From: Lachnospiraceae bacterium
GTDB lineage: Bacteria; Bacillota; Clostridia; Lachnospirales; Lachnospiraceae
DNA: 64,000 nucleotides
Reading direction: 5' to 3'
Assembly: GCA_017476665.1 (NCBI GenBank)
Contig: JAFUZJ010000015.1
Location: 1 to 64,000 of the forward strand
Made by a program: the position numbers and the translations under genes. Under the pieces are notes generated by a model. The model did not search any database, was not told where the DNA came from, and saw only the letters and a program-made list of their open reading frames with translations. Of this stretch, positions 1,566-53,555 are shown in pieces (position 1 is the stretch's first letter; every line of letters starts with the position of its first letter).

Positions 1566-1595
1566 ATCCTTCTCCTTATTAAAGCTCTATATAAC

Positions 1596-1672
1596 AGCGT
1601 CCCTGCGGTGAAGTATACACTATGCACAACGCCACTGCTGTAACATCGAGTTTCGCATAATTGATTATACCG
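1596..1672. repeat. half copy of the dispersed palindromic element (copy A)
   Basis: This stretch matches only the right arm of the longer elements at 14146-14392 and 55629-55837, including the shared segments AGCGTCCCTGCGGTGAAGTA and GAGTTTCGCATAATTGATTA. The matching left arm is absent. It lies in the clpX leader, between the predicted promoter and the start codon. Confidence 0.7.
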
Positions 1673-1692
1673 AATATCCCTGCTGTACACAA
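1664..1692 (-). promoter_or_regulatory. predicted sigma-A promoter of clpX
   Basis: On the minus strand TTGTGT (1687-1692) is followed after 17 bases by TATAAT (1664-1669). Transcription would start near 1657 and give a leader of about 90 bases that carries the half repeat. Confidence 0.65.
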
Positions 1693-1721
1693 GTAAAGTT
1701 TTTATTAAGCAAACATAAAAC

Positions 1722-1761
1722 AAATCAGAAAGACCCTGCAGTTTCAGGCTGCAGGGTCTTT
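1722..1761 (-). terminator. intrinsic terminator of the htrA-type gene
   Basis: A 13-base perfect stem (1729-1741 with 1749-1761) with a short loop lies 48 bases after the protease stop codon. On the minus strand it is followed by a T-rich stretch. Confidence 0.8.
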
Positions 1762-1809
1762 CCGTGAGGGGAGTCATATGACTTGTAATCTTCTCTTCAT
1801 TTTTTCCAA

Positions 1810-3291
1810 TCAACGGCTGCGGGTGGGTCTTGTACCCAATGTAAGCTGCACTTCTTTTTCCGTATACTCACCGTTTGACGGGCGCATAATAGTCACTTTT
1901 ACCGTATCACCTGCGCCGAAATACTGTAACACATCCTGCAGGTCGGCAAAGGAAGTGATCCTCTCTCCGTCAAATTTGGTGATCACATCACCCTTCATGA
2001 TGCCTGCTGCCTCTGCGCTGGTTCCTTCATAAACCGTTGCCACATAGACGCCTTTGGGCATTCCGAACATCTTGGAGATATCATCTGTCACATCCTGATA
2101 GGAGATTCCGATATATCCGGTCTCTCCGTCCGCAACTTTATTTCTGGTCTGACGCTCCATCAGATCCGCAATGATAGGGCTGGCTGCAGTGATGGGGATC
2201 GCATACCCCATACCTTCTATGGAAGAACCGCCGATTTTATTGGAATTGATGCCGATCACTTCTCCTGCTGCATTTAACAATGCACCGCCGGAATTGCCGG
2301 GATTGATCGCTGCATCCGTCTGGATGAAGCTCTTGGTAGACCCGTCTTCCAGTTCAATCTCTCTGTCCAGTGCACTGATGTATCCGACTGTCACGGACTG
2401 ACCGTAGCCCAATGCATTGCCGATGGCGATCACCTGCTCGCCCAGTTCCAGTTCATCGCTGTCGCCCAGTTTTGCCACTGCGATCGCATCCAGCGTCTCT
2501 GCGGAGAGATCTCCCAGATCAACAGCGATAACTGCCAGATCCATGTCCGCATCTTTTCCCTTGATCTTCGCCTTTGCTTCCGTTCCGTCATCCAAAGTAA
2601 CGATCAGTTCATTTGCATCGGCCACAACATGCTGGTTGGTGACGATCAGCAGTTCGGAGTCATTCTTTGCCACGATGATACCGGAACCGCTGGCGGAATG
2701 ATCTTTCTGATAACGCTGTCCCCAGAAAGTGGTCACCTCTGTATAATTGTTCACGATGGACACCATAGCCGGCATCACATCTTTTACGATTTCTGTCACA
2801 TTGGTCTGGGCTGTGGTATAGATCACCTTGGTGTCTTCATCCTGACTGAACACCGTAGCGGGAAACTCACCAATCTCCTCATGGGGAACAATGGTCGTCT
2901 CCGTGTTGGAAGCAGGCAGGCTCTTCTGCAAAGCGCCGGATGCCTGAGTTACCCCGAGGAATCCCACGCCGGCAAAAATTCCGAAGAGCAGTCCCATGCT
3001 CAGGCTGAGCATGATCTTGCCAAACACATGGCCTTTCTTTTTCTCCGGCTGCGCAGCCTGTTCCGGCTGGACTGTGCGCTCCGGCGCCGCCGTCCACTCC
3101 TGTCTTCTCGCATACTCCTGTCCTGCATGATCCTGCCTTGCATACTCCTGCGCGGCCCCGTCCGCTGTCCGGGACTGTGTCTGCGCTCCCATGACCCCCG
3201 CCATGGCATCCGCGTCCTTATGATAGCTGTTGTCTTCCAGATTGTTGAAATATCCCTGTCCTATGCCTGATTCATTGTCATTCTCATACAT
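1810..3291 (-). CDS. HtrA/DegP-family membrane-anchored serine protease
   Basis: Trypsin-like protease with a PDZ domain, expected to face the cell exterior and handle misfolded surface proteins. From the ATG at 3291 it has 493 residues: a polar, Gln/Ala-rich cytoplasmic N-terminus (1-90), one membrane segment (about 92-115), a protease domain with His221 (TNQHVV), Asp251 (DMDLAV) and Ser334 (NPGNSGGA), and a PDZ domain at about 385-485. All three catalytic residues are present. The start at 3291 is preferred over an in-frame one 33 bases upstream because AGAGGG lies about 6 bases before it. It is a single-gene unit with its own promoter and terminator. Confidence 0.94.
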   Translation of the reverse strand: MYENDNESGIGQGYFNNLEDNSYHKDADAMAGVMGAQTQSRTADGAAQEYARQDHAGQEYARRQEWTAAPERTVQPEQAAQPEKKKGHVFGKIMLSLSMGLLFGIFAGVGFLGVTQASGALQKSLPASNTETTIVPHEEIGEFPATVFSQDEDTKVIYTTAQTNVTEIVKDVMPAMVSIVNNYTEVTTFWGQRYQKDHSASGSGIIVAKNDSELLIVTNQHVVADANELIVTLDDGTEAKAKIKGKDADMDLAVIAVDLGDLSAETLDAIAVAKLGDSDELELGEQVIAIGNALGYGQSVTVGYISALDREIELEDGSTKSFIQTDAAINPGNSGGALLNAAGEVIGINSNKIGGSSIEGMGYAIPITAASPIIADLMERQTRNKVADGETGYIGISYQDVTDDISKMFGMPKGVYVATVYEGTSAEAAGIMKGDVITKFDGERITSFADLQDVLQYFGAGDTVKVTIMRPSNGEYTEKEVQLTLGTRPTRSR

Positions 3292-3351
3292 AATAATCCC
3301 TCTTTTCTGAATCACCCGATCCATACGATCGTTCTGTTCCTTGATGAGTTC

Positions 3352-3384
3352 AGTATATCCACAAATTGTGTTTAATTTGTGTTT
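3352..3384 (-). promoter_or_regulatory. possible promoter with 11-bp direct repeat, htrA-type gene
   Basis: The minus strand has a good -10 box TATACT (3352-3357) about 60 bases before the start codon. No canonical -35 is visible. Instead, two direct repeats of an 11-mer of the form AAACACAAATT (3363-3373 and 3374-3384) lie where a -35 would be, as expected if an activator or repressor binds there. Confidence 0.4.
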
Positions 3385-3421
3385 AAAAAATGAAACAAAA
3401 GTGAAAAGTTCCGGATTATTT

Positions 3422-5248
3422 TTATTCTACCGTCACGGATTTTGCCAGATTTCTGGGGTGATCCACGTCATATCCCTTGCCCACTGCAATATAATACGCA
3501 AAGAGCTGCAGGGGAATAATTGCCAGGGAATTGGCAAAATAAGGATTGGTATACGGAATATAAATGACATAATCCGCCGCCTTCTCGATCTCCTTACGGC
3601 CTCTCTCCGCCACGGCCATGACAAATGCGCCGCGGGATTTTACTTCCACAATATTGCTCACTGTCTTGGGGAACAGATCCGGCTGCGTTGCCAATGCAAC
3701 CACCAGTGTGCCATCCTCGATCAGAGAGATGGTACCGTGCTTCAGCTCGCCTGCCGCATAGGCCTCGGAGTGCACATAGGAGATCTCCTTCAGCTTCAGC
3801 GATCCCTCCAGAGAGATCGCATAGTCGATGCCTCTTCCGATGAAGAACACGTTCTTCGCGCCCACATAGCGGTTTGCAAAATGCTGAAGCTTCTCTTTCT
3901 GTCCCAACAACAGCTCGATCTGATCCGGCAGTGCCTGAATATCCTCCAACAAACCTGCAAAGGTTGCATCGTCGATCATGCCTCGCACTCTTCCCAGTTT
4001 CATGGCCAACAGATACAGTGCCACCAGCTGCGCGCTGTATGCCTTGGTGGTGGCAACGGAGATCTCCGGTCCTGCCCAGGTATACATGACGCTGTCTGCC
4101 TCTCTGGCGATGGAACTTCCCACCACATTGACAATGCCCAATACCTTCAGGCCACGCTTCTTCGATTCGCGCACCGCCTCCAGGGTATCCGCCGTCTCTC
4201 CGGACTGACTGATCACGATCACCAGGTCTCTGGGATCCAGGATCGGATTGCGGTAGCGGAACTCGCTGGCCACTTCTACTTCTACCGGAATCCTTACCAA
4301 TCCCTCGATCACATATTTCGCGGTCACGCCGGCATGGTATGCGGATCCGCAGGCCACAATATGGATTCTCTGGATTGCCCGCAATTCCTCATCCGTCAGC
4401 TTTAATTCTTCAATCTGTATATCGCCGTTTTTGATTCGGGGAGAGAGCGTGTCCGTAACGGTCTTGGGCTCCTCATAGATCTCCTTGAGCATAAAGAACT
4501 CGTACCCGGCTTTTTCGGCGGAATTGGCATCCCACTCGATGGTCACAGCCTGCTTTACCACCGGCTCCTCATCCACGGTATAGAATTCGATCCCGTCTGT
4601 GGAAAGTACCGCAACCTCCTGATTATCAAGGTAAAATACCGTGCGCGTATATTTCAGGATCGCCGGAACATCCGAAGCGATCAGGCAGCCGTCTTCACTC
4701 TGTCCCACGATCAGCGGACTGTCCTTGCGTGCCGCAAAGAGCTTTCCGGGGCAGTCGTCAAACAGAATGCCCAGCGCATAGGAACCCTCCACGCGATGCA
4801 GCACCTTGGTGATCGTCTCCAGCGGATTTCCCTTGTAATAATAATCTAGGAGATGCGCCAGCACCTCCGTATCGGTCTCGGAGGTGAACTCGTATCCCTT
4901 CTTTTCCAGCTTCTTCTTTAACGCCATATAGTTCTCGATAATGCCGTTGTGAACCACCACGATAGAACCTGCTTTATTGGTATGCGGATGCGCGTTGAGA
5001 TCGCTGGGAGCACCGTGTGTCGCCCATCTGGTGTGTCCCACGCCGGAAAATCCTTTCATGGTCTCTCCGCCTCTTGTCAAATGCTCCAGCACAGCCAGAC
5101 GCCCTGCCGCCTTCTGCGTACAGATATGTTCTCCGTCAAACACTGCGATGCCGGCTGAATCATAGCCTCTGTACTCCAGTTTAGAGAGGCCGTCCAGTAT
5201 GATGGGTGCCGCCTGATTTTTTCCGATGTAACCAACAATTCCGCACAT
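3422..5248 (-). CDS. glmS: glutamine--fructose-6-phosphate aminotransferase (isomerizing)
   Basis: Makes glucosamine-6-phosphate from fructose-6-phosphate and glutamine, the entry step to UDP-GlcNAc and peptidoglycan. At 608 residues it has the family length. MCGIVGYIG gives the N-terminal nucleophile Cys after Met removal. The glutaminase domain covers about 1-220, followed by two SIS sugar-isomerase domains, and the C-terminus ends in the family-typical LAKSVTVE. GGAGG precedes the ATG. Only 21 bases separate it from the upstream glycosyltransferase, so there is no room for the glmS ribozyme often found before this gene in Gram-positives. It appears to be the last gene of the operon starting at 8.9 kb. 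Confidence 0.98.
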   Translation of the reverse strand: MCGIVGYIGKNQAAPIILDGLSKLEYRGYDSAGIAVFDGEHICTQKAAGRLAVLEHLTRGGETMKGFSGVGHTRWATHGAPSDLNAHPHTNKAGSIVVVHNGIIENYMALKKKLEKKGYEFTSETDTEVLAHLLDYYYKGNPLETITKVLHRVEGSYALGILFDDCPGKLFAARKDSPLIVGQSEDGCLIASDVPAILKYTRTVFYLDNQEVAVLSTDGIEFYTVDEEPVVKQAVTIEWDANSAEKAGYEFFMLKEIYEEPKTVTDTLSPRIKNGDIQIEELKLTDEELRAIQRIHIVACGSAYHAGVTAKYVIEGLVRIPVEVEVASEFRYRNPILDPRDLVIVISQSGETADTLEAVRESKKRGLKVLGIVNVVGSSIAREADSVMYTWAGPEISVATTKAYSAQLVALYLLAMKLGRVRGMIDDATFAGLLEDIQALPDQIELLLGQKEKLQHFANRYVGAKNVFFIGRGIDYAISLEGSLKLKEISYVHSEAYAAGELKHGTISLIEDGTLVVALATQPDLFPKTVSNIVEVKSRGAFVMAVAERGRKEIEKAADYVIYIPYTNPYFANSLAIIPLQLFAYYIAVGKGYDVDHPRNLAKSVTVE

Positions 5249-5269
5249 AATCTTATTTCCTCCGAATTT

Positions 5270-6193
5270 TTATTTTGTCCAATAGTCCGGGCTTGCCGTG
5301 CATGCAAGCACAAACCGCCGCGGTAATTTCCGATAATGTTTGCCGAGAAGATACCCTGCATATTTGAAAAAGCACTGCAGATAAAAGTATGGGATCTTCT
5401 CCGCCATACGATGGGATCTGAGGAATGCCGTGGCCGACTTTACCATGCGCATTCCCTCCGACTCAGACCGGATGCTCCCAAACACCTCCGGATGCTCCGC
5501 CTGGGAAACCCCCAGATCGAAATTCCGGTGGAACTGCTGCATGCAGGTGTAATTATGGGCATGAATCACTCCGGCCTCCGCTTCATAAGCGATACGGTAT
5601 CCCGCCCGAATCGCAGAAGCCGCATAGATCATATCCTCGTTAAAGATCGCCCGGTCCACAAACCCGCCCAGGCTGTCATAAATATCCCGCCTGTACGCGG
5701 CGCACACATTGGAACAGAAATAGGTCTTGATCCCCAGTCGGGGCAGATCTTCCGCCGATTTTATACAGGTCTTTGTCGGATAATTAAAACGCCTGCTGAA
5801 CCGCTCCAGCACACTGCTCTCTCTGCCGGCCAGCTGTCTGGCATAAGCAACCGCCACATCCCCCTTCAGATTTGCAGTCAGCTTCTCGACCAGCCGGGTG
5901 TCTTTGGGCATGGCGTCCTGGGTCATCATGAGAAAGACCGGCGCCTCGGATCTGCATACCCCTTCGCGCCTGGTGCCCCCATGGTCAAATTCCTGCTTGG
6001 TCAGGTGATACACCCGCACATTTTGATACCGATTGTTGAAATCCGTACCCGCGATCAACCGGTCAAAATATGGCTTCTCCGTATTCATCAGAATGATCCG
6101 ACGAATCGGAACTGTCTGGCGTTCCAGAATATCCAACAATGTAAATAATTCTTTACCGGGCTTATACAGAGGAATGATAACATCTATGTCCAT
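5270..6193 (-). CDS. GT2-family glycosyltransferase, rhamnosyltransferase-like
   Basis: Predicted cytosolic GT-A enzyme (307 residues) that adds a sugar from a nucleotide donor to the surface-glycan precursor. The N-terminus DVIIPLYKPG is the nucleotide-binding strand of GT2 enzymes, and MMTQDA near residue 95 occupies the place of the metal-binding DxD region. The length and the EQ-type motif region are typical of rhamnosyltransferase-like members, but donor and acceptor cannot be read from sequence. AGGAGG lies before the ATG. It sits between the LCP gene and glmS in one operon. Confidence 0.8.
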   Translation of the reverse strand: MDIDVIIPLYKPGKELFTLLDILERQTVPIRRIILMNTEKPYFDRLIAGTDFNNRYQNVRVYHLTKQEFDHGGTRREGVCRSEAPVFLMMTQDAMPKDTRLVEKLTANLKGDVAVAYARQLAGRESSVLERFSRRFNYPTKTCIKSAEDLPRLGIKTYFCSNVCAAYRRDIYDSLGGFVDRAIFNEDMIYAASAIRAGYRIAYEAEAGVIHAHNYTCMQQFHRNFDLGVSQAEHPEVFGSIRSESEGMRMVKSATAFLRSHRMAEKIPYFYLQCFFKYAGYLLGKHYRKLPRRFVLACTASPDYWTK

Positions 6194-43148: not shown

Positions 43149-44648
43149 TCAATCTCTCCCTACATTTTCCGTCTTCACATAAATAATACCGTCCACCAGC
43201 TTTACTGAAGATGCCGCCGGAAAACTTTCCATCTCGATATACTCCTCAGAATAATAGATATCACCCATCTCCTTCGGCGTCATAATATTCAGACTTGCAC
43301 CCAGATAATTTCTGATAAACGCCTCATAATTCTCAGCAGTGTATAGTAAAGTATCTCCGTTCAATCCAATCATATTAGAGGTGACCGGTAACGTGATATC
43401 CGTTACCGGGAACGGTTCATACCCTACAACTCCCACCATTGCAATGGGAATCCCCTGATAATACCCTTCTGTCTGTTCAATCCGGTCCAGCAGTCGTACA
43501 CAATATGCATAGGTCTTCTCATACCGTTTTTGCAGATTTGTATATCCGATATTATCCACCAGTGCATAGTGAAAGACCAGTACAAATGCTGCCGCCAGAC
43601 CGATCCACGCCTTTTTTTCGCCGTGGCGGCTTACAAATGCCACCATCAGAATCAGATATACCACCCATTGATAGCGCATCAGCAAATGATATGTCACATT
43701 GGGAGAAATCAGAAGGATCACATTTGTTGCTAACGGTACCGCCAGCAACACCATGGTTATTATAACAAATAGAGCCGGATTCTTCCATACTTTTCTTTGT
43801 TTCCCCAATCTGCAGGCTCCGTAGATCGCACACCCGCACAACACAATCAACGCAATCAGAGAAAAAATATTCTGGAACAATACATTCCCACGCAATGTAA
43901 AACTGAGAAAATCCCGATACGTATGCGTGATCGTCCCGACTGCCGCCCCGCTGATCCCATCGTTGATCCCCTGATAGGAATCCAGTTCTTTTCCCTCTAT
44001 CACCAACAAAATCCGCAGGATCACATAATAAAACAGGACACCCAACACTCCCATACACAGATAGCGGAATACTTCCCAGCATTTTTCCCTGAAAGGATCT
44101 TCCCTGCCGAAAATGCGAAGCGCCTCATAAAGACAGAGCAGGATCGCAAAGGGCAGATACGCCTGGTAAGTCCCCATGCTGAATGCCAGACAAAAAGCCC
44201 CGATCCAAAAGCCCTTTCTCCACTTTTTGGTACAGAGCACAGACAATACGGCCAGCAACAATGCCAGCATATAACCATCCATGGTAAACACATAAGCAAA
44301 GGTGGACGCCAGCGCCGGAAAGCTTACAAGCAATCCGCTGATCAGCATGATGGGGACAGTGTCCTGTATTTCCAGCAATTCTGCCAAGGCAACAGACGTC
44401 AGTCCCAAAAACACCAATCCCAGCAATCCAATCACCCAGGGAATCGTATAATACGTTGAAAATCCGCATGCAATCGTCAGAAACCATCTGCCGGATGTGA
44501 TCATATTCTGATCAAAATACAGGCTGCTCAGCCCGTCATGATTCGGAATATCCGAAAGCATCACCGGCATATGGATCAGCAAACCGATAAAAAACGCAGA
44601 TAAAAACGCAACTTTATATTCTTTTTTGATCTTTGATGTCCATTTCAT
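43149..44648 (-). CDS. GtrC-like polytopic glucosyltransferase (Glucos_trans_II-like)
   Basis: About 499 residues from the ATG at 44648. Around 11 membrane segments, with an early external loop IPNHDGLSSLYFDQNMITSGRW that matches the conserved loop of the serotype-converting glucosyltransferase family. A soluble tail of about 100 residues ends in a region with SNMIGLNGDTLLYTAENY. It should take the sugar from the lipid made by the GtrB-like enzyme and add it to the chain. GGAGACA or an upstream AGGGGGA could serve as ribosome binding site. It ends 3 bases before the GtrB-like gene starts. Confidence 0.85.
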   Translation of the reverse strand: MKWTSKIKKEYKVAFLSAFFIGLLIHMPVMLSDIPNHDGLSSLYFDQNMITSGRWFLTIACGFSTYYTIPWVIGLLGLVFLGLTSVALAELLEIQDTVPIMLISGLLVSFPALASTFAYVFTMDGYMLALLLAVLSVLCTKKWRKGFWIGAFCLAFSMGTYQAYLPFAILLCLYEALRIFGREDPFREKCWEVFRYLCMGVLGVLFYYVILRILLVIEGKELDSYQGINDGISGAAVGTITHTYRDFLSFTLRGNVLFQNIFSLIALIVLCGCAIYGACRLGKQRKVWKNPALFVIITMVLLAVPLATNVILLISPNVTYHLLMRYQWVVYLILMVAFVSRHGEKKAWIGLAAAFVLVFHYALVDNIGYTNLQKRYEKTYAYCVRLLDRIEQTEGYYQGIPIAMVGVVGYEPFPVTDITLPVTSNMIGLNGDTLLYTAENYEAFIRNYLGASLNIMTPKEMGDIYYSEEYIEMESFPAASSVKLVDGIIYVKTENVGRD

Positions 44649-44668
44649 TGTCTCCGTCCCCCTGTACA

Positions 44669-45532
44669 TCACAGGCTCCCATTCAATCCATTGATTATTT
44701 TTTCAGCGATGATCTGTCTGGATGCTTCATTCGGATGCAACCCGTCTATTGTAAAACGTTCCCAGTCTTCCCACTCCTCATGCGTATATACATCATGATA
44801 CAGATCGATGGCAGGAATCCCAAATTCTTTCGCGATCTCCAGTTCCTTCTGCACATACTCCTCCAAAAAGGCATATCCTGTATTGTACTCCTCGCAGGTT
44901 AACCCGTTAGAGAGATACCAAGTATAAGTTGGCGTCACCACGATCAGGTTTATGTCCGGATATGCTTTGTTTATCGTGTATAGCACACTCCGGAGTGCCC
45001 CGCCATATGTATTTTCATCAAACAGATTTTCAGGGTTATCCACCGGAATTCCTGCATGGTAATCATTTAATCCGAATGCAATCACGATCGTCTTTACCCG
45101 ATGAAAATCAATCTCCGGAAGATCTTCTATGATATCAGCAAAGTAGTTCGTAATTTCCCGTCTGCTGCGCACCGTCTGCTGCACTCCGAAATCGTCAGCT
45201 GCCAGCGCCTTTGCTAAACTGACCATGTTCAGAAGCGTCATCGTGTAGTTTACATCCAGATTTTCATCCTGTACTGCCAGGCTTGTGCCACCCATAGCCG
45301 CATTATACACCGAAAATCCGGATATGGTTTCCAGAGCAGTCGTCACAGAAGTCTCATCTCTGCAGAGCCCGATCAGACTATCCCCAAAGACAACCACATC
45401 ATATTCCTGATCTTTATGGTTGTTTAGCTGTAAGGAGACAAAAACTGCAAGAATCATTGCAAAAATCCCAGCAGCCGCCATCCAATAACGCATGTTATTT
45501 TTCTTATGTGCAAGTTTTTTACTCTTTTTCAT
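44669..45532 (-). CDS. membrane-anchored SGNH/GDSL hydrolase
   Basis: A 287-residue protein with a basic N-terminus, one membrane segment (about 14-34) and an external SGNH domain. Block I is VVFGDSLIG with the nucleophilic Ser intact, MGGTS supplies the oxyanion Gly, IAFGLNDYH the Asn, and DGLHPNEAS the Asp-His pair. A likely role is removing or transferring acetyl or other acyl groups on the surface glycan. The start overlaps the pseG stop by 4 bases (ATGA). The protein at 33676-34644 is a paralogue that lost the Ser. Confidence 0.9.
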   Translation of the reverse strand: MKKSKKLAHKKNNMRYWMAAAGIFAMILAVFVSLQLNNHKDQEYDVVVFGDSLIGLCRDETSVTTALETISGFSVYNAAMGGTSLAVQDENLDVNYTMTLLNMVSLAKALAADDFGVQQTVRSRREITNYFADIIEDLPEIDFHRVKTIVIAFGLNDYHAGIPVDNPENLFDENTYGGALRSVLYTINKAYPDINLIVVTPTYTWYLSNGLTCEEYNTGYAFLEEYVQKELEIAKEFGIPAIDLYHDVYTHEEWEDWERFTIDGLHPNEASRQIIAEKIINGLNGSL

Positions 45533-46599
45533 AATCCTATCCGGCTTTTCACCAAAATATCCGCCAGCCTTCCGGCTCCCTGTCCGTCCGTCAGCCTGCG
45601 TTCACAGACGGAGTACTCCTCTCTCAGTTCCTTGCTTTTGCACAATTGTTTGAAGAGCATTGCTATCTTCTCCGTACAGGCATCCCTGTCTTTGTGCCAT
45701 GCGCCTGCAAAACCTCCGCTCCCGGTTCTTCCGATAGATTCCGCCAGCGCTTCCTGATTTTCCGCATAGGAAAAACAGAGGAACGGAATGCCCACGGCTG
45801 CCAGCTCATACACCGTGCTGCCGCCCGCCGTGATCGCCAGATCGCACGCGCACATCAATTCCGCCATATTTTTCACATCATAATGGATCTGCAGATTCGG
45901 CGTCTGCTCCGCCCGTTCCGTCCACCCGGAAAAATGCGGGGAAAAACGCCCCACCAGAACATGGAAGAAAATGTCCGGCGCATACACCGCGCGCAGGATC
46001 TGCTCCGCAATATTATCCGCGTCCCCTCCACCGGTGGTGAGAAGCACCTGTTGCACTGCCGGCCGGATGCTGTACTCTGTATTTTGAAACTGCTCCCGCA
46101 GCGGCGCATACTGCGCTCCCAGGAAAAATTTCGTACTCTGCCCCCGATAAAGTCTCCGATAAAGATCCGGATCGGCAAACACGTTATAATTGATCACCCC
46201 GTCCACGGGATAAGGCTGGGCCTGCAGATCGTCCATGAGGAACACACTACCGTAGGCATGCAGCGCCTGCAGATACCGCTCAGTCACATAATAGCTGTCC
46301 ACCAGGATAACATGTCCTGTCCCCGTAATCCATTTATCCCATGGGCAGATACCCGCACTGTCTCTGGACAGTTCCGATTCCATCTGTCGATAGTCGGTAT
46401 CTAGAACTCCCGCCTGGAACCCATGGTCCCGTGCCATCCGCGCCGAATCCTCATCCGCGCACAGGAACAGCACCTGTGTTTCCCCGTTCGTTTTTTCTTT
46501 ATCCGCATACCGTGCATGCACCGCATGCGCGATCGTCAGGCACCGCATCAAATGTCCGGCGCCGATCCTTGCATTTCCGTCCGCCCGAATGATCAACAT
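45529..46599 (-). CDS. pseG: UDP-2,4-diacetamido-2,4,6-trideoxy-beta-L-altropyranose hydrolase (PseG-like)
   Basis: Removes UDP from the pseudaminic acid precursor. 356 residues of the GT-B type. The N-terminus has RADGNARIGAGHLMRCLTIA with the catalytic His of PseG, then VDSYYVTERYL, FLMDDL, TTGGGDADN and DLAITAGGSTVYELAAVGIPFLCFS. The full motif set favours PseG over other GT-B enzymes. It lies between pseI and the SGNH gene, 23 bases after pseI. The product feeds PseI. Confidence 0.92.
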   Translation of the reverse strand: MLIIRADGNARIGAGHLMRCLTIAHAVHARYADKEKTNGETQVLFLCADEDSARMARDHGFQAGVLDTDYRQMESELSRDSAGICPWDKWITGTGHVILVDSYYVTERYLQALHAYGSVFLMDDLQAQPYPVDGVINYNVFADPDLYRRLYRGQSTKFFLGAQYAPLREQFQNTEYSIRPAVQQVLLTTGGGDADNIAEQILRAVYAPDIFFHVLVGRFSPHFSGWTERAEQTPNLQIHYDVKNMAELMCACDLAITAGGSTVYELAAVGIPFLCFSYAENQEALAESIGRTGSGGFAGAWHKDRDACTEKIAMLFKQLCKSKELREEYSVCERRLTDGQGAGRLADILVKSRIGL

Positions 46600-46622
46600 A
46601 ATCTGCTCTCCAACACCGCTCT

Positions 46623-47690
46623 CTAATGCTGCCCGTCAAATTCTACCAGATCCCAACTCATCGGAGTGCCGAGTTTTGCATCCCTTGTGATCCGCTTCCC
46701 CAAAAGGTCCTCGTAATATTTCGTGTGCAGCCCGCAGCCGGGACGCACCGAGCGCAGATTCTCGGGCGTGAATACTTCCCCCGCCTTCATGTCCTGCGCC
46801 ACAAACAGCGAACGGGAATGCTCCCTCTCTCTGGTCTGCTTCTCGGTCAGCTCATAGGTCACTTTTCCCAATGCCAGCTCAATCTTGCGGATATTGTCCA
46901 CCATCAGCTTAAACTCTTCCGGCTCCATGGAAAACGCCGCATCCGCGCCGCCGTCCGCCCTGCGCAGAGTCAGATGTTTCTCCACCACCTTCGCCCCCAG
47001 TGCCACCGCTGCATCCGCCACGGCATGTCCCATGCTGTGATCGGACAATCCGGTCAGGCAGTCAAAGGTCTGCGCCATGGACGGGATTGTTTTTAAATTA
47101 ATATCCTCGTAGGGCGCCGGATATGCGGAGGTACACTTGAGCAGGATCACATCCTCATTTCCCTCCTGCCTACAGGTATCCATCGCCAGCTCTATATCCG
47201 CCAGACGGGCAATCCCTGTGGCAAAGATCATGGGCTTCCCAAGCTTTGCGATCTTGCGGATCAGCGGAATGTCCGTGATCTCAAAGCTGGCGATCTTATA
47301 CGCCGGCACCTTCATCTCCTCCAAAAAATCCACCGCCGTGAAATCAAAGGGCGAAGAGAAGAATTCCAGTCCCATCTCCCGGGCTTTCTCCTGCAATCTC
47401 GGCTGCCACTCCCAGGGAGTGTAAGCCGTCTGATACAGTTTGTGCAGCGTGGTCCCGTCCCACAGCGTCCCCTGGGTGATCTGAAAACAGGGATCGTCGC
47501 AGTCCAGCGTGATCGTATCCGCCGTGTAAGTCTGGATCTTCACAGCGTCCGCTCCCGCATCCTTTGCCGCCTGCATCACGGCCACCGCCCTGTCAAAATC
47601 CATCAAATGGTTGGCGGACATCTCCGCTATGACAAATGTCGGAGAATCCTCGCTGATGATATGATCGCCAAATTGAATTACTTTGTTCAT
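46623..47690 (-). CDS. pseI: pseudaminic acid synthase (PseI/NeuB family)
   Basis: Condenses phosphoenolpyruvate with the PseG product to form pseudaminic acid. 355 residues from the ATG at 47690 (AGGAG upstream; a longer frame runs into pseH). The TIM barrel carries EMSANH, AGADAVKIQTYTADTITLDC, GTLWDGTTLHKLY, TPWEWQ, SSPFD, KIASFEI, KCTSAYPAP and GLSDHSMGHAV. A C-terminal SAF antifreeze-like domain follows (AQDMKAGEVFTPENLRSVRPG). The GTLWDG and TPWEWQ blocks are typical of PseI rather than sialic acid NeuB. Confidence 0.94.
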   Translation of the reverse strand: MNKVIQFGDHIISEDSPTFVIAEMSANHLMDFDRAVAVMQAAKDAGADAVKIQTYTADTITLDCDDPCFQITQGTLWDGTTLHKLYQTAYTPWEWQPRLQEKAREMGLEFFSSPFDFTAVDFLEEMKVPAYKIASFEITDIPLIRKIAKLGKPMIFATGIARLADIELAMDTCRQEGNEDVILLKCTSAYPAPYEDINLKTIPSMAQTFDCLTGLSDHSMGHAVADAAVALGAKVVEKHLTLRRADGGADAAFSMEPEEFKLMVDNIRKIELALGKVTYELTEKQTREREHSRSLFVAQDMKAGEVFTPENLRSVRPGCGLHTKYYEDLLGKRITRDAKLGTPMSWDLVEFDGQH

Positions 47691-47703
47691 TGCACTCTGC
47701 TCC

Positions 47704-48249
47704 TCACACAAATACAATCTTTTCGTACTTCTTCCCTTCACGGATCTCCCGCCAGTGCTCCGCCGTCATCCGCATAAATGTCACGTCATAATAAATACCG
47801 TCTTTTAAAATATGATCCTTTTTCTCCTCCACCACTTCACATCCGCAGATCTTGTGCAGCTGGATCACGCCCTTGTTCAGCGTGAACACATCGCTGATCA
47901 CCGCCTCTTTTCCCAGTTCGATCAGCGCATGGTCGTACATGCTCATCTCCAACGCCAATGCCGTCTGAATGCTGCGCAGCCTCTGTTCGCCCACATAGTA
48001 GGCCCAGCCCAGCACGCCGTCCGCTTTGGTGAGCCCCGTCAGGTTGATGACGCCCGCCGATTCCCCATTCACCCGGATCAGCCAATAGCGCACATCCTTA
48101 TTTTCCCGGATGCCAGCCAGCCACTTTTTCTGTCCCTCCAGGGTCAGCTTAGGGTTCGTGTTCATATATCTGGTGATCTCCTCCGCCATGCGCCAGCGTA
48201 TGATGTTTTCCAGATCCCCTTCCTCGATCGCGCGCAGTGTCACACTCAT
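47704..48249 (-). CDS. pseH: GNAT acetyltransferase, PseH-like
   Basis: Predicted N-acetyltransferase acting on UDP-4-amino-4,6-dideoxy-N-acetyl-altrosamine in the pseudaminic pathway. 181 residues from the ATG at 48249, whose TGA-overlap (ATGA) with the upstream acyl-carrier gene explains why longer in-frame starts are unlikely. It has LRAIEEGDLENIIRWRM, NPKLTLEGQKKWL and GWAYYVGEQRLRS in the expected order for this subfamily. pseI follows after 13 bases. The donor is acetyl-CoA in known PseH enzymes, but the coupling to an acyl-carrier gene leaves open another acyl donor. Confidence 0.88.
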   Translation of the reverse strand: MSVTLRAIEEGDLENIIRWRMAEEITRYMNTNPKLTLEGQKKWLAGIRENKDVRYWLIRVNGESAGVINLTGLTKADGVLGWAYYVGEQRLRSIQTALALEMSMYDHALIELGKEAVISDVFTLNKGVIQLHKICGCEVVEEKKDHILKDGIYYDVTFMRMTAEHWREIREGKKYEKIVFV

Positions 48250-49124
48250 AGGCAGCCTGCCTTCTGAAGCAGCTCCCGCATACCCGTCAGCTCGATTGCA
48301 TCCTCCAGCGGAATCTTCACACCCAAACGTTCCTCCAGTTCCCCGATGATCGTCACATGCATGAGGGAATCCCACTCTTCCACATCCTCGATCAAGGTAT
48401 CCTCCGTGATCGTACCCGCAGGCACCGCAAGGATCTCCTCGATCAACGCTATGATCTTATCCTGCAATTCTTTGTTTCCTTCCATAGCTTTCTCCACACC
48501 TCTCAGTTTTATGATCACGCCGCCACGATCCGTCCGCCGGCAGACATACTTTTCTTCTGACGCATTCTTTTCATTCCATACATTCCAAGCAGCCTCAGGC
48601 AGGATTGCAAAGGGCTCCGCACCGGGCTCTGCACCATCACAGATCTCTTCCAGCGAAGGCGACGGATCTGAAAGCTCCAATTCCGTCTGGATCAGACAGA
48701 CGCAGGGAAACTGCCACATTTTTTCACCCAGCAGGACCAGCCGGTCAACCTTCTTGGCATCATATTCCGGTCCGCTTTTATGCCAGCAGATCAGCTCATC
48801 CTCCGGAAGAATCACATGAAATTCAAAATAAGCATCCTCCCGCCGATTCAGCCAAAAACCGCGCACTTCCGAAAACCCGCCATATTCAAAAAGCATCTGC
48901 TTATACCCATTGAAATAAGGCTCCGACGGCTCCGGCACATAATCCGCTTCCAACTTTGCCTGGTTCCAGGCAATGATCTCCTCCGGGGTATCCATATCAT
49001 AGCCCCAGTATCCGCCTGCAAACCGAAATCCGTTTCCGATCAGAGCCGTATAAAAATCCTGCACCAGCTTCGGATATATGCATTTCTTTTCACATACAAA
49101 TTTCATTGAAAAATAAGCCGGCAT
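48246..49124 (-). CDS. unknown domain fused to a C-terminal acyl carrier protein
   Basis: A 292-residue protein. The last 79 residues form an acyl carrier domain with EEWDSLMHV, where the Ser should carry phosphopantetheine, preceded by the helix ELQDKIIALIEEIL. The first 213 residues match no family I recognise; they are rich in aromatic residues and contain YFNGYKQMLFEYGG and PEDELICWHKSGPEY. An internal ATG at 48485 (Met214) has GGAG about 7 bases upstream, so a free carrier may also be made. It is first in the pse operon, behind a good promoter, and AGGAGG precedes its ATG. It is the natural partner for the FkbH-like protein at 60150-61862, which in known systems loads a carrier. Confidence 0.85.
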   Translation of the reverse strand: MPAYFSMKFVCEKKCIYPKLVQDFYTALIGNGFRFAGGYWGYDMDTPEEIIAWNQAKLEADYVPEPSEPYFNGYKQMLFEYGGFSEVRGFWLNRREDAYFEFHVILPEDELICWHKSGPEYDAKKVDRLVLLGEKMWQFPCVCLIQTELELSDPSPSLEEICDGAEPGAEPFAILPEAAWNVWNEKNASEEKYVCRRTDRGGVIIKLRGVEKAMEGNKELQDKIIALIEEILAVPAGTITEDTLIEDVEEWDSLMHVTIIGELEERLGVKIPLEDAIELTGMRELLQKAGCL

Positions 49125-49250: not shown

Positions 49251-50597
49251 TTAAACAAGATGTCCCTTTTGTTTTATGACATCTATCACCTGGTCCACAT
49301 ATTTCTCGCAGATCTCATCCGACCCCGCTTCCACCATCACGCGGATCACAGGCTCCGTACCGGACTCACGCACCAGGATACGTCCTTCATTTCCGAGTGC
49401 CGCTGCAACATCCGCAACCGCTTTCTGCACATCCGGATCATTCTGTGCCTCCGGTTTGCTCTTTACACGGACATTCTTTAAAACCTGCGGGTAGAACACC
49501 ACCGGTGCCGCCAGCTCGCTCATGGGCTTGCCTTTCGCCAGCATAACCTCCATGAGTTTCAGGGAAGTCACAATGCCGTCACCCGTCGTCTCGTATTTGC
49601 TGAAAATAATGTGACCGGACTGCTCGCCGCCGATACGGTTCCCCGTCTGCACCATATTCTCATACACATACTTGTCGCCCACCTTGGTCTTCTCATACTC
49701 GATGCCCACCTTGTCAAGGGCCTTGTAGAGACCAAAGTTGCTCATGACCGTAGTCACAACCTTGTTGTTCAGAAGCTTGCCTCTCTCTTTCATGTAGAGA
49801 CCGTAGATGTACAGGATATGATCACCGGTGATCACATTGCCCTTCTCATCCACTGCAAGACAGCGGTCCGCATCGCCGTCATAGGCAAAACCGATATCCA
49901 GCCCCTTCTCCACCACGAACTTCTGCAGATGCTCAATATGAGTGGAACCGCAGTCCGTATTGATATTCAGACCGTCGGGTGCATCATTCATCACATAAGT
50001 CTTGGCGCCCAGGGCATCAAACACACCCTTTGCGATCTGCCATGCCGCGCCGTTCGCCACATCCAGACCCACCTTCACATCCTTGAAGCTGTACTTTGAC
50101 AGGGAGATCAGGAAACCGATGTAACGGTTTCTTCCGGCCACATAATCCACCGTTCTGCCGATGGTCTCTCTCTCACTCACCGGAATCTCAATCTTTCCGT
50201 CGATATAATCCTCCACCTTGAGGATCGTCTCCTCATCCATCTTCTCACCGTTTCCGTTCAACAGCTTGATACCATTGTCGTAAAACGGATTGTGGGAAGC
50301 GGAAATCATAATACCGCAGTCAAAATCATCCACTCTCGTGATATACGCCACGGAAGGAGTCGTTGTCACATGCATGATATATGCATCTGCGCCGCTTGCC
50401 ATCAGGCCGGTGCAAAGCGCATACTCAAACATATAAGAAGATCTTCTGGTATCCTTGCCGATAACGATCTTTGCTTTTTTCCCCTGATTGGCACCATAGT
50501 ACCAACCCAGGAAACGTCCGATCCGGATCGCATGCTCAAAAGTCAATGTCTTGTTTGCTTCTCCGCGGAAGCCGTCTGTTCCAAAATATTTTCCCAT
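49251..50597 (-). CDS. glmM: phosphoglucosamine mutase
   Basis: Converts glucosamine-6-phosphate to glucosamine-1-phosphate on the way to UDP-GlcNAc. 448 residues, family length. It starts MGKYFGTDGFRGEAN, has the phosphoserine loop ISASHNPFYDNGIK (first Ser phosphorylated), metal loop AYDGDADR, sugar loop GGEQSGH and phosphate loop RESGTEPVIRVM. Its ATG overlaps the stop of the beta-helix gene by one base (TGATG), so it is translationally coupled. It ends at a strong terminator. In this operon its expression would be controlled by the ribozyme at 52150-52275. Confidence 0.98.
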   Translation of the reverse strand: MGKYFGTDGFRGEANKTLTFEHAIRIGRFLGWYYGANQGKKAKIVIGKDTRRSSYMFEYALCTGLMASGADAYIMHVTTTPSVAYITRVDDFDCGIMISASHNPFYDNGIKLLNGNGEKMDEETILKVEDYIDGKIEIPVSERETIGRTVDYVAGRNRYIGFLISLSKYSFKDVKVGLDVANGAAWQIAKGVFDALGAKTYVMNDAPDGLNINTDCGSTHIEHLQKFVVEKGLDIGFAYDGDADRCLAVDEKGNVITGDHILYIYGLYMKERGKLLNNKVVTTVMSNFGLYKALDKVGIEYEKTKVGDKYVYENMVQTGNRIGGEQSGHIIFSKYETTGDGIVTSLKLMEVMLAKGKPMSELAAPVVFYPQVLKNVRVKSKPEAQNDPDVQKAVADVAAALGNEGRILVRESGTEPVIRVMVEAGSDEICEKYVDQVIDVIKQKGHLV

Positions 50598-51259
50598 CAG
50601 TCTGCCCTCTTTTCTGCGATCACACCATTATTTTTAAAGATGCTGTTGGCGGGTACCGTTCCGCGCACGCAGGATGTGGGATACACATTGCTGTGACGGC
50701 CGATGACGGTTCCCGGATTGCAGACGGAATTGCAGCCTACCTCCACATAATCTCCCAGCATCGCGCCGAATTTCTTCAGTCCCGTCAGGATCTGCTCCGT
50801 TCCGTTATGAACCACTACCAATGTCTTATCAGACTTCACATTGCTGGTGATGCTGCCGGCGCCCATATGGCTGTAATAACCCAAAATCGAGTCGCCCACG
50901 TAATTGTAATGGGGTGTCTGCACATGATCGAACAGGATCACGTTTTTCAGTTCTACGCTGTTGCCTACCACACAGTCTGCTCCCACCAGAGCCGAACCTC
51001 TGATGAACGCACAGTGACGCACCTCCGTGTTGGGGCCGATGATGCAGGGTGCCCCCAGATATGCGGAAGGGAACACCTTCGCAGTCTTGTGAACCCATAC
51101 GCCGGGCTCCCGCTCCTCATAATCCTCTCCCAGAGTCGGTCCCAACGCCAGAATCATATCCTTGATGCCTTTCAACGCCTCCCAGGGATAGGTAAACTGT
51201 GAAAGATACTCAGCTGCCAGCGTATGCTCCAGATCATATAACTCTTTTATCGTATACAT
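50597..51259 (-). CDS. left-handed beta-helix protein, GlmU C-domain-like
   Basis: A 220-residue protein with hexapeptide repeats from about residue 55 (VHKTAKVFPSAYLGAPCIIGPNTEVR), as in the acetyltransferase half of GlmU. It includes the GlmU-like stretch DSILGYYSHMGAGSITSNVKSD. It lacks the uridylyltransferase half. It could acetylate glucosamine-1-phosphate or a related sugar phosphate, which fits its place between nagB and glmM. It starts on the last base of the nagB stop (TAATG) and overlaps glmM by one base, so three genes are coupled. Annotation as a nucleotidyltransferase in databases would be misleading. Confidence 0.88.
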   Translation of the reverse strand: MYTIKELYDLEHTLAAEYLSQFTYPWEALKGIKDMILALGPTLGEDYEEREPGVWVHKTAKVFPSAYLGAPCIIGPNTEVRHCAFIRGSALVGADCVVGNSVELKNVILFDHVQTPHYNYVGDSILGYYSHMGAGSITSNVKSDKTLVVVHNGTEQILTGLKKFGAMLGDYVEVGCNSVCNPGTVIGRHSNVYPTSCVRGTVPANSIFKNNGVIAEKRAD

Positions 51260-52050
51260 TACAGCCTCTCTTTCTTCTCAATATCGAGAAAATACTTATA
51301 GGTATCCACTGTCAGCTCGCCGCAGGCTGCCTCATCGCACGCGATGATCGCGCCATTGTGCATCTGTAATGCGGAACATGTCCATTTCTGGCTTACGCCG
51401 CCCTCCACTGTTGCTGCGAGTGCACGCGCTTTGTTATGCCCGTTGATGAGGATCAATACCTCCTTGGAATCCGTCACGGTTCCCACACCCACAGACAATG
51501 CCTGTGCAGGTACTTTCTCCGGATCATTTCCGAAGAAACGGGAATTTACAATACGGGTATCTGTGGTCAGATCACGTACGCCCGTGCGGGATGCCAGACT
51601 TGTAAAGGGCTCATTAAACGCAATATGGCCGTCCACGCCGATACCGCCCATGAACAGATCGATTCCGCCATAGGAAGCGATCTTCGCCTCATATCTTGCG
51701 CACTCCCCTTCCGGATCGTCCGTCATACCGTTCAAAATGTTGATATTCTCCGGCTTCATATCCACCAGATGATCAAAGAAATTGTCATGCATAAAGTACC
51801 AGTAACTCTGGTCATGCTCTCTGGGAAGTCCAAGGTACTCATCCATGTTAAAAGTAACCACATTGGCAAAAGACACCTTTCCCGCCTTGTTTTGTCTCAC
51901 CAGCTCCTGATAGACGCCAATAGGACTGGAACCGGTAGGCAGCCCAAGTACAAAAGGACGATCCTCCTTGTGCGCCTGGATCTTTGCTGCAATATAATCC
52001 GCCGCCCATTTACACATTTTCTCATAGTTGTCCTGTATTACAACCCTCAT
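51259..52050 (-). CDS. nagB: glucosamine-6-phosphate deaminase
   Basis: Interconverts glucosamine-6-phosphate with fructose-6-phosphate and ammonia. 263 residues from the ATG at 52050 with AAGGAG upstream; a longer frame runs through the ribozyme and is not a start. Motifs: GLPTGSSPIGVY, NMDEYLGL (catalytic Asp), GIGVDGHIAFNEP and DTRIVNSRFF. NagB is usually catabolic, but this one heads a coupled operon with glmM and a GlmU-like acetyltransferase and carries a GlcN6P-sensing ribozyme in its leader. Together these argue for a role tied to amino-sugar synthesis. GlmS at 3422-5248 provides the standard route. Confidence 0.96.
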   Translation of the reverse strand: MRVVIQDNYEKMCKWAADYIAAKIQAHKEDRPFVLGLPTGSSPIGVYQELVRQNKAGKVSFANVVTFNMDEYLGLPREHDQSYWYFMHDNFFDHLVDMKPENINILNGMTDDPEGECARYEAKIASYGGIDLFMGGIGVDGHIAFNEPFTSLASRTGVRDLTTDTRIVNSRFFGNDPEKVPAQALSVGVGTVTDSKEVLILINGHNKARALAATVEGGVSQKWTCSALQMHNGAIIACDEAACGELTVDTYKYFLDIEKKERL

Positions 52051-52149
52051 ATTGTCGTTCTCCTTATTGTTTTCAGCATATTTTATTGATTTTTTGCGAA
52101 AAATATTCGCTGCCGCACCGGGAAAACCTCTGTTACAGTTTTTATTCTG

Positions 52150-52275
52150 CTTTTTCCTCTTTCCCTTACGATCTGCGGTCAAATGTGGTCGCTCACATTT
52201 TGTGACCGTGACAGCATCCGCCGAGTCTTTCGATCGCTGTCATTCCTCGTCACCCTCTCAGGGCCTGGCGCTAAT
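52150..52275 (-). ncRNA. glmS-type self-cleaving ribozyme in the nagB leader
   Basis: Reading the minus strand, the segment contains the glmS ribozyme core in order. These are the cleavage-site GCGCC (predicted cut before the G at 52271), a short P1-like stem CCCT/AGGG, TGACGAGGA, a perfect 7-base stem TGACAGC/GCTGTCA around GATCGAAAGAC, the invariant TCGGCGGATG, a long P4-like stem CGGTCA/TGACCG, then CAGATC and CGTAAGG. Order and spacing match the Bacillus glmS ribozyme as I know it. It lies about 100 bases before nagB, not glmS. Glucosamine-6-phosphate should act as cofactor for cleavage and so lower expression of nagB, the beta-helix gene and glmM. Confidence 0.92.
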
Positions 52276-52337
52276 AACGATCCCTGTATCCTCCTTCCAT
52301 GGCACGATCATCATTTTAACTATAACATATCTATGAT

Positions 52338-52365
52338 AGTATATCATAAATAAAGGGAAATGCAA
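52338..52365 (-). promoter_or_regulatory. predicted sigma-A promoter of the ribozyme-nagB-glmM operon
   Basis: On the minus strand TTGCAT (52360-52365) and TATACT (52338-52343) are 16 bases apart. Transcription from about 52331 gives a leader of about 280 bases that contains the ribozyme. The 480-base gap 52051-52529 otherwise holds only the terminator of the next gene. Confidence 0.7.
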
Positions 52366-52435
52366 ACCGTTTTGTGCATGACAGTGCAAAGCGCTATGCC
52401 GGTACGGCAGACAAATTGGCTCATTGCCCGCGGAA

Positions 52436-52529: not shown

Positions 52530-53555
52530 CTACACTGCTGATCTCCTGTTTTTCCGTTGCATTACTTTTGCAAGCACCTGCTCCACATCATATTCCGGGG
52601 CAAAATGTTCGGCCTCTTCACAGATCAGACTGATTTCGGAAATATCTTCCTCGAGTTCCTCAGCAATTGCATCTGTATTTTTCCCTTTGCGCAGCTTTCT
52701 GCAAACCTGTGCAACCAATTTGAAGCACTCTCCTTCTGCCTTTCCTTCCTCCCACGACTCTTTCTGGATCGTCTTGTCATGCAGTTCTTGGTCAAATTCA
52801 AAAATGCTCATGCTGATCACCTTCGCCTTCTCCCGCAGCAGAAAATCCCGCAAAATTCCTGCATCAATACATTCCTCTACTGCTGCCTCAACTGCGTCCC
52901 GCAGAGGCATAGTCTTCTCATATTTCCTGACGCATTCCACATACTGCACATATTGCAGCAGCGTCGGACACTTCTGTTTCAGAGCCTCGTTATAACCCGG
53001 ATTAATGTTTAACTGTAGCACCCGCAGCTCCAGATTCGGTGTCTCTGCGCTGCCATTGCACCCATCCTCCGCTGTATCCGTCGCACGGTAATACGCCTCC
53101 GACAGTCTCTGCTCCAACCGTTCCGGCTGCTTTCGCATCCCGTTATAAAACGTGATAAACCTCGGCGCCGGCAGGCGTATCAGCGAACAGGCATAAATAT
53201 CCTGCCCTGCTGTCAGCTGTTCAAACTGTTTCGCCACATAAAAAAGATTCCGCAGCGGCATATTCCTGCACACCGTTGATTGCTGTTCATACAAACTCAG
53301 CCGCGTATCCAGAATGAACGACACATCATTCTTCATAGACATGTAGATTGCCTGCTCCAACGTCACCACCTGAAGCTGCTCCGGATCCGTATAACTCCCG
53401 TCGCTCACCGCATTGTATAACGCCAGCAACTCTCTTCTGTCGCTGTAGAGCATGCGAAAAATCGTATCTTTGTACTTCTGCACAACCGCAGGTTTGGCAT
53501 GCGCTGTGCGCTTGCTGCGAACGCCCTGCTTACGTCCTCCTGGCCGTTTTTTCAT
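52530..53555 (-). CDS. Rpn-family PD-(D/E)XK nuclease/putative transposase-like protein
   Basis: A 341-residue protein of the Rpn (recombination-promoting nuclease) group, often named transposase though not part of an insertion sequence. The N-terminus is very basic (first 30 residues). The nuclease fold starts at KYKDTIFRMLYSDRRELLALYNAV and carries DVSFILDTRLSLYEQQST, with the Asp and E-x-Q of the active site. A coiled-coil, charged C-terminus (about 240-341) has an EGKAEGECFKL stretch typical of the family. AGGAGG precedes the ATG. A different Rpn-type protein lies at 62711-63766. No terminal inverted repeats flank the gene. Confidence 0.88.
   Translation of the reverse strand: MKKRPGGRKQGVRSKRTAHAKPAVVQKYKDTIFRMLYSDRRELLALYNAVSDGSYTDPEQLQVVTLEQAIYMSMKNDVSFILDTRLSLYEQQSTVCRNMPLRNLFYVAKQFEQLTAGQDIYACSLIRLPAPRFITFYNGMRKQPERLEQRLSEAYYRATDTAEDGCNGSAETPNLELRVLQLNINPGYNEALKQKCPTLLQYVQYVECVRKYEKTMPLRDAVEAAVEECIDAGILRDFLLREKAKVISMSIFEFDQELHDKTIQKESWEEGKAEGECFKLVAQVCRKLRKGKNTDAIAEELEEDISEISLICEEAEHFAPEYDVEQVLAKVMQRKNRRSAV

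Follow-up and report, generated by a model that had tools for sequence, protein, structure and literature searches.

A complete ribozyme of the glmS class was found in the leader of nagB within a 64,000-nt stretch of a Lachnospiraceae genome (hereafter the window), in which nagB is followed by a glmU-C-like gene and glmM. Ribozymes of this class are known as dedicated glmS switches, and NagB is described in textbooks as a degrader of glucosamine-6-phosphate (GlcN6P). We propose with fairly high confidence that the arrangement as a whole represents GlcN6P feedback on a biosynthetic operon, in which NagB would work in the aminating direction. We also favor, a little less firmly, the view that the ribozyme has been redeployed from GlmS to a NagB-derived, ammonium-dependent GlcN6P synthase, carried on a horizontally moving unit mostly of ruminant gut bacteria. 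The relevant features of the window are as follows.

52338-52366, minus strand: promoter-like site TTTGCA-17-TATACT with TG before the -10 element (consensus scan, 9/12 matches, weak)
52111-52283, minus strand: glmS ribozyme, RF00234, full length (53.5 bits; gathering cut-off 37)
52271-52272, minus strand: predicted cleavage site between A52272 and G52271, before GCGCC (from the position of AGCGCC)
52113-52178, minus strand: P3.1 pseudoknot, CCGCA (52178-52174) with TGCGG (52117-52113), a five-pair helix read from the sequence
51259-52050, minus strand: nagB, 263 aa, E. coli-like glucosamine-6-phosphate deaminase/isomerase family (TIGR00502, 377.8 bits; cut-off 236.9)
50597-51259, minus strand: glmU-C-like gene, 220-aa left-handed beta-helix, GlcN-1-P acetyltransferase-like (TIGR03992, Hexapep)
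49251-50597, minus strand: glmM, phosphoglucosamine mutase (TIGR01455, 545.3 bits; cut-off 447.55)
3422-5248, minus strand: glmS without ribozyme, separated by 21 nt from a preceding family 2 glycosyltransferase gene at 5270-6193 (TIGR01135, 798 bits)

When all 64,000 nt of the window were searched with cmscan at gathering thresholds, RF00234 was the single Rfam match above threshold (52283-52111, minus strand; E 1.4e-9), covering positions 1-167 of the 167-position model without truncation and lying 60 nt before the nagB start. The whole-genome search gave the identical site at 57 bits, and no second RF00234 match was found in it. In addition to the AGCGCC cut site, the core motifs GACGAGG (52251-52245), AUCGA and UCGGCGG (TCGGCGG at 52224-52218) are all present on the minus strand, and TGACAGC (52242-52236) pairs with GCTGTCA (52215-52209). 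The double pseudoknot, formed by P2.1/P2.2 and P3.1, can also be drawn in the window RNA, with P2.2 as CGCC/GGCG in what we take to be its register. P2.1 is represented by CGA/UCG in the register of the pair C38-G55 of PMC11602151. The original prediction, that the nagB leader carries a glmS-type ribozyme, was to fall with a sub-threshold RF00234 score and missing P2.1/P3.1 pairing; it stands, as the score lies above threshold, both pairings are present and the core motifs sit at the places assigned to them. The usual location in a glmS mRNA, by which the RNA is not defined, is lacking, the next gene being nagB. A chance match was rejected on the basis of the full-length match at the above E value and of 12 further family copies before similar gene runs, and we regard the identity of the RNA itself as nearly certain. 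As to the promoter-like site, the consensus scan of the region gave 11 sites against 4.8 expected.

The start of nagB was assigned to the ATG at 52050, preceded by AAGGAG; a longer ORF of 307 aa was discarded as upstream read-through from a TTG. nagB overlaps the glmU-C-like gene by one base, and so does the latter with glmM. Within the genome, nagB is the one match to TIGR00502, GlmM the sole match at E 1e-40, and the glmU-C-like gene the one match at the threshold used. For the latter the best NCBIfam match was TIGR03992 (Arch_glmU), with 135 bits over the C-terminal part against a cut-off of 292. All of its 22 NCBIfam matches stayed under the cut-off, and those of GlmU type span only C-terminal parts of the models; the name "GlmU-C-like" was chosen because no GlmU-family model reaches its curated cut-off. 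Since no gene of the genome exceeds the cut-off for bifunctional glmU, the uridylyltransferase step is left without an identified gene. The glmS gene is intact, and no other gene of the genome matches TIGR01135 at E 1e-60. As had been noted from the sequence, glmS is devoid of such an RNA: no RF00234 match lies near glmS in either the window or the genome search. Displacement of the glmS ribozyme by an assembly error was rejected, because glmS is intact, has its own gene context and shares the contig with the operon.

Downstream of the operon, a pseudaminic-acid-type cluster (43149-49124, minus strand) encodes PseI and PseG above cut-off and a PseH-like protein below it, together with a GtrII-type glucosyltransferase and an ACP-domain protein. 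Use of UDP-GlcNAc by pseudaminic-acid-type glycans is a possible reason for an extra supply of GlcN6P in this organism. The 341-aa gene upstream of the operon (52530-53555, minus strand) has no Pfam match at E 0.001.

Following the proposal that RF00234 hits be sorted by their downstream gene, we surveyed 397 genomes drawn from the family of the window for RF00234 at E 0.001, and found it in 74 genomes, in 73 of them above cut-off. The next gene on the same strand was scored among GlmS, NagB, GlmU-C and GlmM at all 74 places: GlmS came next at 60, GlmU-C at 7 and NagB at 6, and one place was followed by the contig end. In this RNA-based survey, each of the 13 places at which the next gene is visible and is not glmS (13/13) precedes a unit with window-type nagB in the run. 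A NagB-based search of the same 397 genomes at E 1e-60 yielded the identical 13 genomes at an identity of at least 86%, plus one genome at 74% (G326) and seven at 44-47%. The unit copy in one of the surveyed genomes (G211) ends at a contig end. The place before the contig end (L062 of G366, 2372-2534) is a divergent RF00234 match with GCGCUA at the cut site and CAGCGG in the core, located 65 nt from the end, so that its next gene is out of view. At another locus (L039 of G230, 418-5481), the ribozyme is situated between glmS, directly upstream, and a glmU-C-nagB-glmM run.

The true targets of the ribozyme might be glmM and glmU-C, as feedback on the later steps, with nagB as a passenger or a drain. 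The location of glmU-C directly after the ribozyme in 7/13 family genomes agrees with such an arrangement. We nevertheless give it little credence, because nagB is present at all 13 places of the RNA-based survey at which a gene other than glmS comes next, the complete family NagBs are 86-94% identical across genera, and two family loci (L045 and L070) have nagB with neither glmM nor glmU-C in the run. The same is true for 7 of the 38 ribozyme loci of named relatives described below, a set found through nagB, although one of these seven (L170) ends 742 nt after nagB.

In two further species of the window's genus, neither NagB at E 1e-20 nor RF00234 was found. Their GlmU-C matches (E 1.2e-88 and 5.6e-82) are much weaker than those in nine genomes with a copy inside the unit (2.3e-125 or better), and the nagB unit of the window's genome therefore looks imported. 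The ribozyme-nagB unit seems to be widespread and to move between lineages.

For closer analysis of the RNA, a ribozyme model was built on 12 sequences of the family, of which L054 is linked to glmS and the other 11 are linked to nagB. Among the named relatives, that is, the best 80 of 586 from a scan of genome contigs, with NagB identities of 72-100%, this model matched 38 loci with 112.8-152.1 bits. All 38 matches have the same orientation as nagB and precede the run that contains it, with a spacing to the next unit gene of 23-287 nt (median 47). In these 38 ribozymes, 95.8% of the cells are paired; two-sided changes were detected in 15/31 pairs as against 10.7 in shuffles, and 119 cells are compensatory as against 35.2 (0/500 shuffles as high), in an alignment that was fitted to the model and thus leans towards its pairing. 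The fold of the ribozyme is supported by this covariation. Since P3.1 is absent from the built model, it was tested separately, by matching every loop in turn with the tail of the same ribozyme and with tails taken from the other ribozymes. The test set of 51 ribozymes came to 49 after removal of one duplicate and one unparsable sequence, and one empty loop was scored 0. The mean longest helix was 4.24 for own against 3.51 for mismatched loop/tail pairs, a value as high as that in 0/10000 permutations, and at least 4 pairs were formed in 37/49 own combinations compared with 48% of mismatched ones; the parse is rough, as it missed the five-pair helix of the window and scored 3 pairs there.

L4 of the window RNA, AAUAAAAA, is not the GNRA tetraloop that docks on P1, a peripheral feature. 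In the group as a whole, P4 ends in a loop of AAUMAAMA type, in place of the GNRA-like GUGA of the Rfam consensus. Because this loop was also detected in at least three glmS-linked family ribozymes (L044, L048 and L054; 37/73 loci parsed), it is a mark of subtype rather than of linkage to nagB. In a near-identical relative with 100% NagB identity (L150, 4269-4459), loop L3 carries an additional copy of a short repeat compared with the window RNA (52111-52283), which is a length change at a peripheral loop.

The leader RNA could instead be a decayed or re-purposed relic that does not respond to GlcN6P. One family copy has this appearance: at L074 of G257 (2421-2572 and 2800-3150), a ribozyme remnant of 30.1 bits, below cut-off and without the cut-site motif, accompanies a nagB whose match is confined to residues 1-114 of 263. 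The other 12 of the 13 nagB-linked family copies are above cut-off; the TAGCGCC columns are invariant in 12/12 rows of alignment A1, as are the core columns, 11 of these rows being nagB-linked; and the stems covary in the 38 named copies. We consider the relic reading very improbable, and an RNA of this class in the window would, by its class, be expected to cleave in a GlcN6P-dependent manner.

We next describe the gene runs of the named relatives, for which adjoining was defined as the same strand with gaps below 450 nt. Of the best 80 of 586 relatives, 58 have NagB of at least 84% identity. One or both of glmM and glmU-C adjoin nagB in 44/58 of these loci, and neither does in 14/58. All six possible orders of nagB (N), glmU-C (U) and glmM (M) occur: NUM, UNM and UMN in ribozyme-led runs, and NMU, MNU and MUN exclusively at loci in which the ribozyme was not found. 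glmS also adjoins in five loci (L154, L197, L199, L204 and L211), and in a sixth (L164) it is located 1.2 kb downstream. In two of these, glmS (S) is inside the ribozyme-led (R) run itself, in the order R-U-N-M-S at L199 and R-M-N-S at L211, the latter with NagB of 79%. A deaminating NagB would there run a futile cycle against GlmS, which counts for synthesis. At L168 and L188, nagB shares 89-91% identity with that of the window but the glmM and glmU-C next to it no more than 60-71%, as if nagB had been added to genes already resident. Neither glmM nor glmU-C was seen in the runs of the group with NagB of 72-75% (L212-L229 except L220), which was left out of the 58.

The built model detected the ribozyme in 37/58 of these loci, and additionally in L211. 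In the other 21/58 it was found with neither the built model nor Rfam, of which a few may be hidden: L180 offers only 95 nt before nagB, and the run of L204 begins at a contig end. Ribozyme control is therefore not obligatory. As judged from titles and tree labels, the ribozyme-bearing loci belong to Lachnospiraceae, Oscillospiraceae and Erysipelotrichaceae, and the ribozyme-less ones additionally to Mogibacterium, Spirochaetales and Flexilinea, where single odd labels may reflect mis-binning since most are MAGs; L178 (Ruminococcaceae bacterium P7) is not labelled as such. A ruminant animal and gut section are named in 19/58 titles, 23 more carry RUG names, presumably rumen uncultured genomes, and 16 have no such label, these being raw counts without base-rate control. 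Mapping of the ribozyme label onto the NagB tree requires 12 changes (11-13 on bootstrap trees, with 6 forced by the starred branches, in a bootstrap that had not settled), a number as low as that being reached in 0/500 shuffles of the labels; several losses, gains or transfers of the ribozyme are implied by this pattern. raiA RNAs (RF03072) were detected about 2-6 kb upstream of the nagB units of L177 (243-405), L188 (2076-2240) and L195 (458-620), units at which the glmS ribozyme was not found.

The NagB protein was then compared with two solved chains, with residues numbered along a solved NagB chain. It belongs to TIGR00502, and D72, D141, H143, E148, R172 and K208, which we take to be the catalytic set, are kept in 81/81 sequences. 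The allosteric site for GlcNAc6P consists of Tyr121, Asp141, Glu148, Ser151, Arg158, Lys160 and Tyr254 (PMC4281351). Within this site, Asp141, Glu148 and Tyr254 are kept in 81/81 and Tyr121 in 80/81 sequences, and the changes S151T, R158G and K160R are found in 81/81, so that the site is not of the E. coli subtype. The three changes are common to 22/22 relatives at 72-80% identity, mostly without glmM, glmU-C or ribozyme nearby; they are thus not specific to the operon and are probably older than the unit. By itself, the allosteric change says nothing about the direction of the reaction.

NagA was looked for in 30 genomes, 13 with window-type NagB and 17 others. It exceeded the cut-off in 6/13 genomes with window-type NagB as against 8/8 with ordinary NagB (Fisher p 0.018), a type with 38-44% identity whose gene has NagA next door on the same strand in four of eight genomes. 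No NagA above cut-off was found in 7/13 genomes, that of the window included. A depletion of NagA in these genomes as such was rejected, and only the contrast of NagA per NagB was used, because 6 of the other 17 genomes are also without NagA above cut-off. A second NagB type was not found at E 1e-20 in any of the 13 genomes, including the 6 with NagA; NagB could therefore also serve catabolism in these six.

NagB might instead be an ordinary catabolic deaminase, which the ribozyme throttles at high GlcN6P, for instance in a bistable switch or as a saving of GlcN6P for the cell wall. Besides the NagA of 6/13 genomes and the NagB family membership above cut-off, the energetics fit this reading: the catabolic direction is favored, with an equilibrium constant of 0.2 M, and the Km for NH4+ is 31.4 mM for "eGNPDA", taken as the E. 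coli enzyme (PMC11593775). High ammonium Km values also appear in PMC5902328. The case of Akkermansia fits as well: the organism is without GlmS and needs GlcNAc, its NagB formed no GlcN6P at physiological conditions, and the enzyme is unaffected by GlcNAc6P (PMC5902328). Owing to this NagB, neither the loss of GlmS nor a lost allosteric site proves amination. Against ordinary catabolism, a consumer repressed by its own substrate would have the wrong sign; moreover, glmM and glmU-C, and twice glmS, lie in the run, the GlcNAc6P-site residues are altered in 81/81 sequences, and 7/13 genomes, including the window's, have no NagA above cut-off. We consider the catabolic reading unlikely.

We thus return to the reading of NagB as a synthase. 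The leader RNA would bind GlcN6P and cut its own mRNA between A52272 and G52271, so that expression of nagB-glmU-C-glmM would fall when GlcN6P is plentiful. NagB would act as an ammonium-dependent GlcN6P synthase, converting fructose-6-P and NH4+ to GlcN6P. The reversible NagB step would be pulled forward by GlmM, forming GlcN-1-P, and by the GlmU-C-like acetyltransferase, forming GlcNAc-1-P with acetyl-CoA. Co-transcription of the unit, destabilization of the cut mRNA and a net aminating flux are presumed in this scheme. The relation of NagB to GlmS would resemble that of glutamate dehydrogenase to GS-GOGAT, with NagB as a route that consumes no glutamine and is of advantage at high ammonium. 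The rumen is such an ammonium-high setting. Given the equilibrium constant and the high ammonium Km, net synthesis needs both high ammonium and a pull, and the glmM and glmU-C of the same run offer the latter. The logic of sign, by which cleavage triggered by GlcN6P suits an enzyme that makes it, the gene content and the convergence described below point to synthesis.

The original prediction had suggested that NagB may work in the synthetic direction, and the results speak for it: the ribozyme-nagB pairing recurs in 13/397 family genomes and 38 of 80 named loci, glmM and/or glmU-C adjoin in 44/58 loci with glmS in two ribozyme-led runs, the GlcNAc6P-site residues are changed in 81/81 sequences with the catalytic ones kept, and NagA is missing above cut-off in 7/13 genomes as against 0/8 with ordinary NagB. 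NagB is not the only route to GlcN6P, because GlmS is present in 13/13 ribozyme-nagB genomes; the claim that it is the only source is false here.

GlmS at E 1e-60 was unmatched in 25/397 family genomes (G096, G288, G123, G141 and G178 among them), of which 20 were examined further; 15/20 are at least 90% complete, G269 included. GlmS was above cut-off in 0/20 and NagB in 17/20. Of the 17 NagB places, only those of G096 (99% complete, order M-N-U) and G288 (97%, M-U-N) have glmM and glmU-C beside nagB, and six others have a neighbor of nagA-like size, as judged by size only. The NagB of both G096 and G288 is of a distant type with 39-42% identity, and its occurrence in a glmM/glmU-C run without GlmS above cut-off may represent convergence. 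Only these two were used as evidence. The GlmS-less genomes were rejected as a proof of NagB amination, because pieces of GlmS, probably truncated at contig ends, are present in G269 and G199, such runs are few, and the case of Akkermansia shows such a conclusion to be fallible.

The ribozyme gives the sign of control, more GlcN6P leading to less NagB, and the direction of NagB thereby becomes a testable prediction instead of a problem of annotation. If the proposed reading is true, the unit would provide a feedback-controlled and glutamine-sparing entry to UDP-GlcNAc and cell-wall synthesis, through which, in guts rich in ammonium, the latter would pass directly into the amino-sugar pathway. 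Many nagB genes annotated as catabolic would then be biosynthetic, and the nagB annotations in these genomes would mislead metabolic models. GlcN6P mimics proposed as antibacterials would also strike a different set of enzymes in these bacteria.

The RNA class and all of the enzymes are already known, and what is new is the deployment before nagB. All but two of 463 glmS ribozymes are said to reside in glmS mRNAs in the abstract of McCown, Roth and Breaker from 2011. Among the titles and abstract openings seen, none was found to report a glmS ribozyme before nagB. Of the known systems, GlmNagB of Giardia lamblia (GPI1/GN6PI) is also of the NagB family, insensitive to GlcNAc6P and dominantly anabolic in function; it differs in being eukaryotic and encystation-induced, and ribozyme control is not mentioned in the part of the report at hand (PMC4281351). 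NagB of Akkermansia muciniphila (Amuc_1822) likewise comes from a gut bacterium and is unaffected by GlcNAc6P, but it showed no amination at physiological conditions, in an organism without GlmS that needs GlcNAc (PMC5902328). With NagB/GNPDA of E. coli and mammals (TIGR00502), the window NagB shares a full-length match and the catalytic residues, but S151, R158 and K160 are replaced and it is encoded with glmM and glmU-C, not with nagA. The closest system for the RNA is the glmS ribozyme of Bacillus subtilis, which has the same RNA class, cut site and P2/P2.1/P2.2/P3/P3.1/P4 plan and presumably senses the same metabolite; in contrast to it, the window RNA carries the AAUMAAMA-type P4 loop and precedes nagB-glmU-C-glmM instead of glmS.
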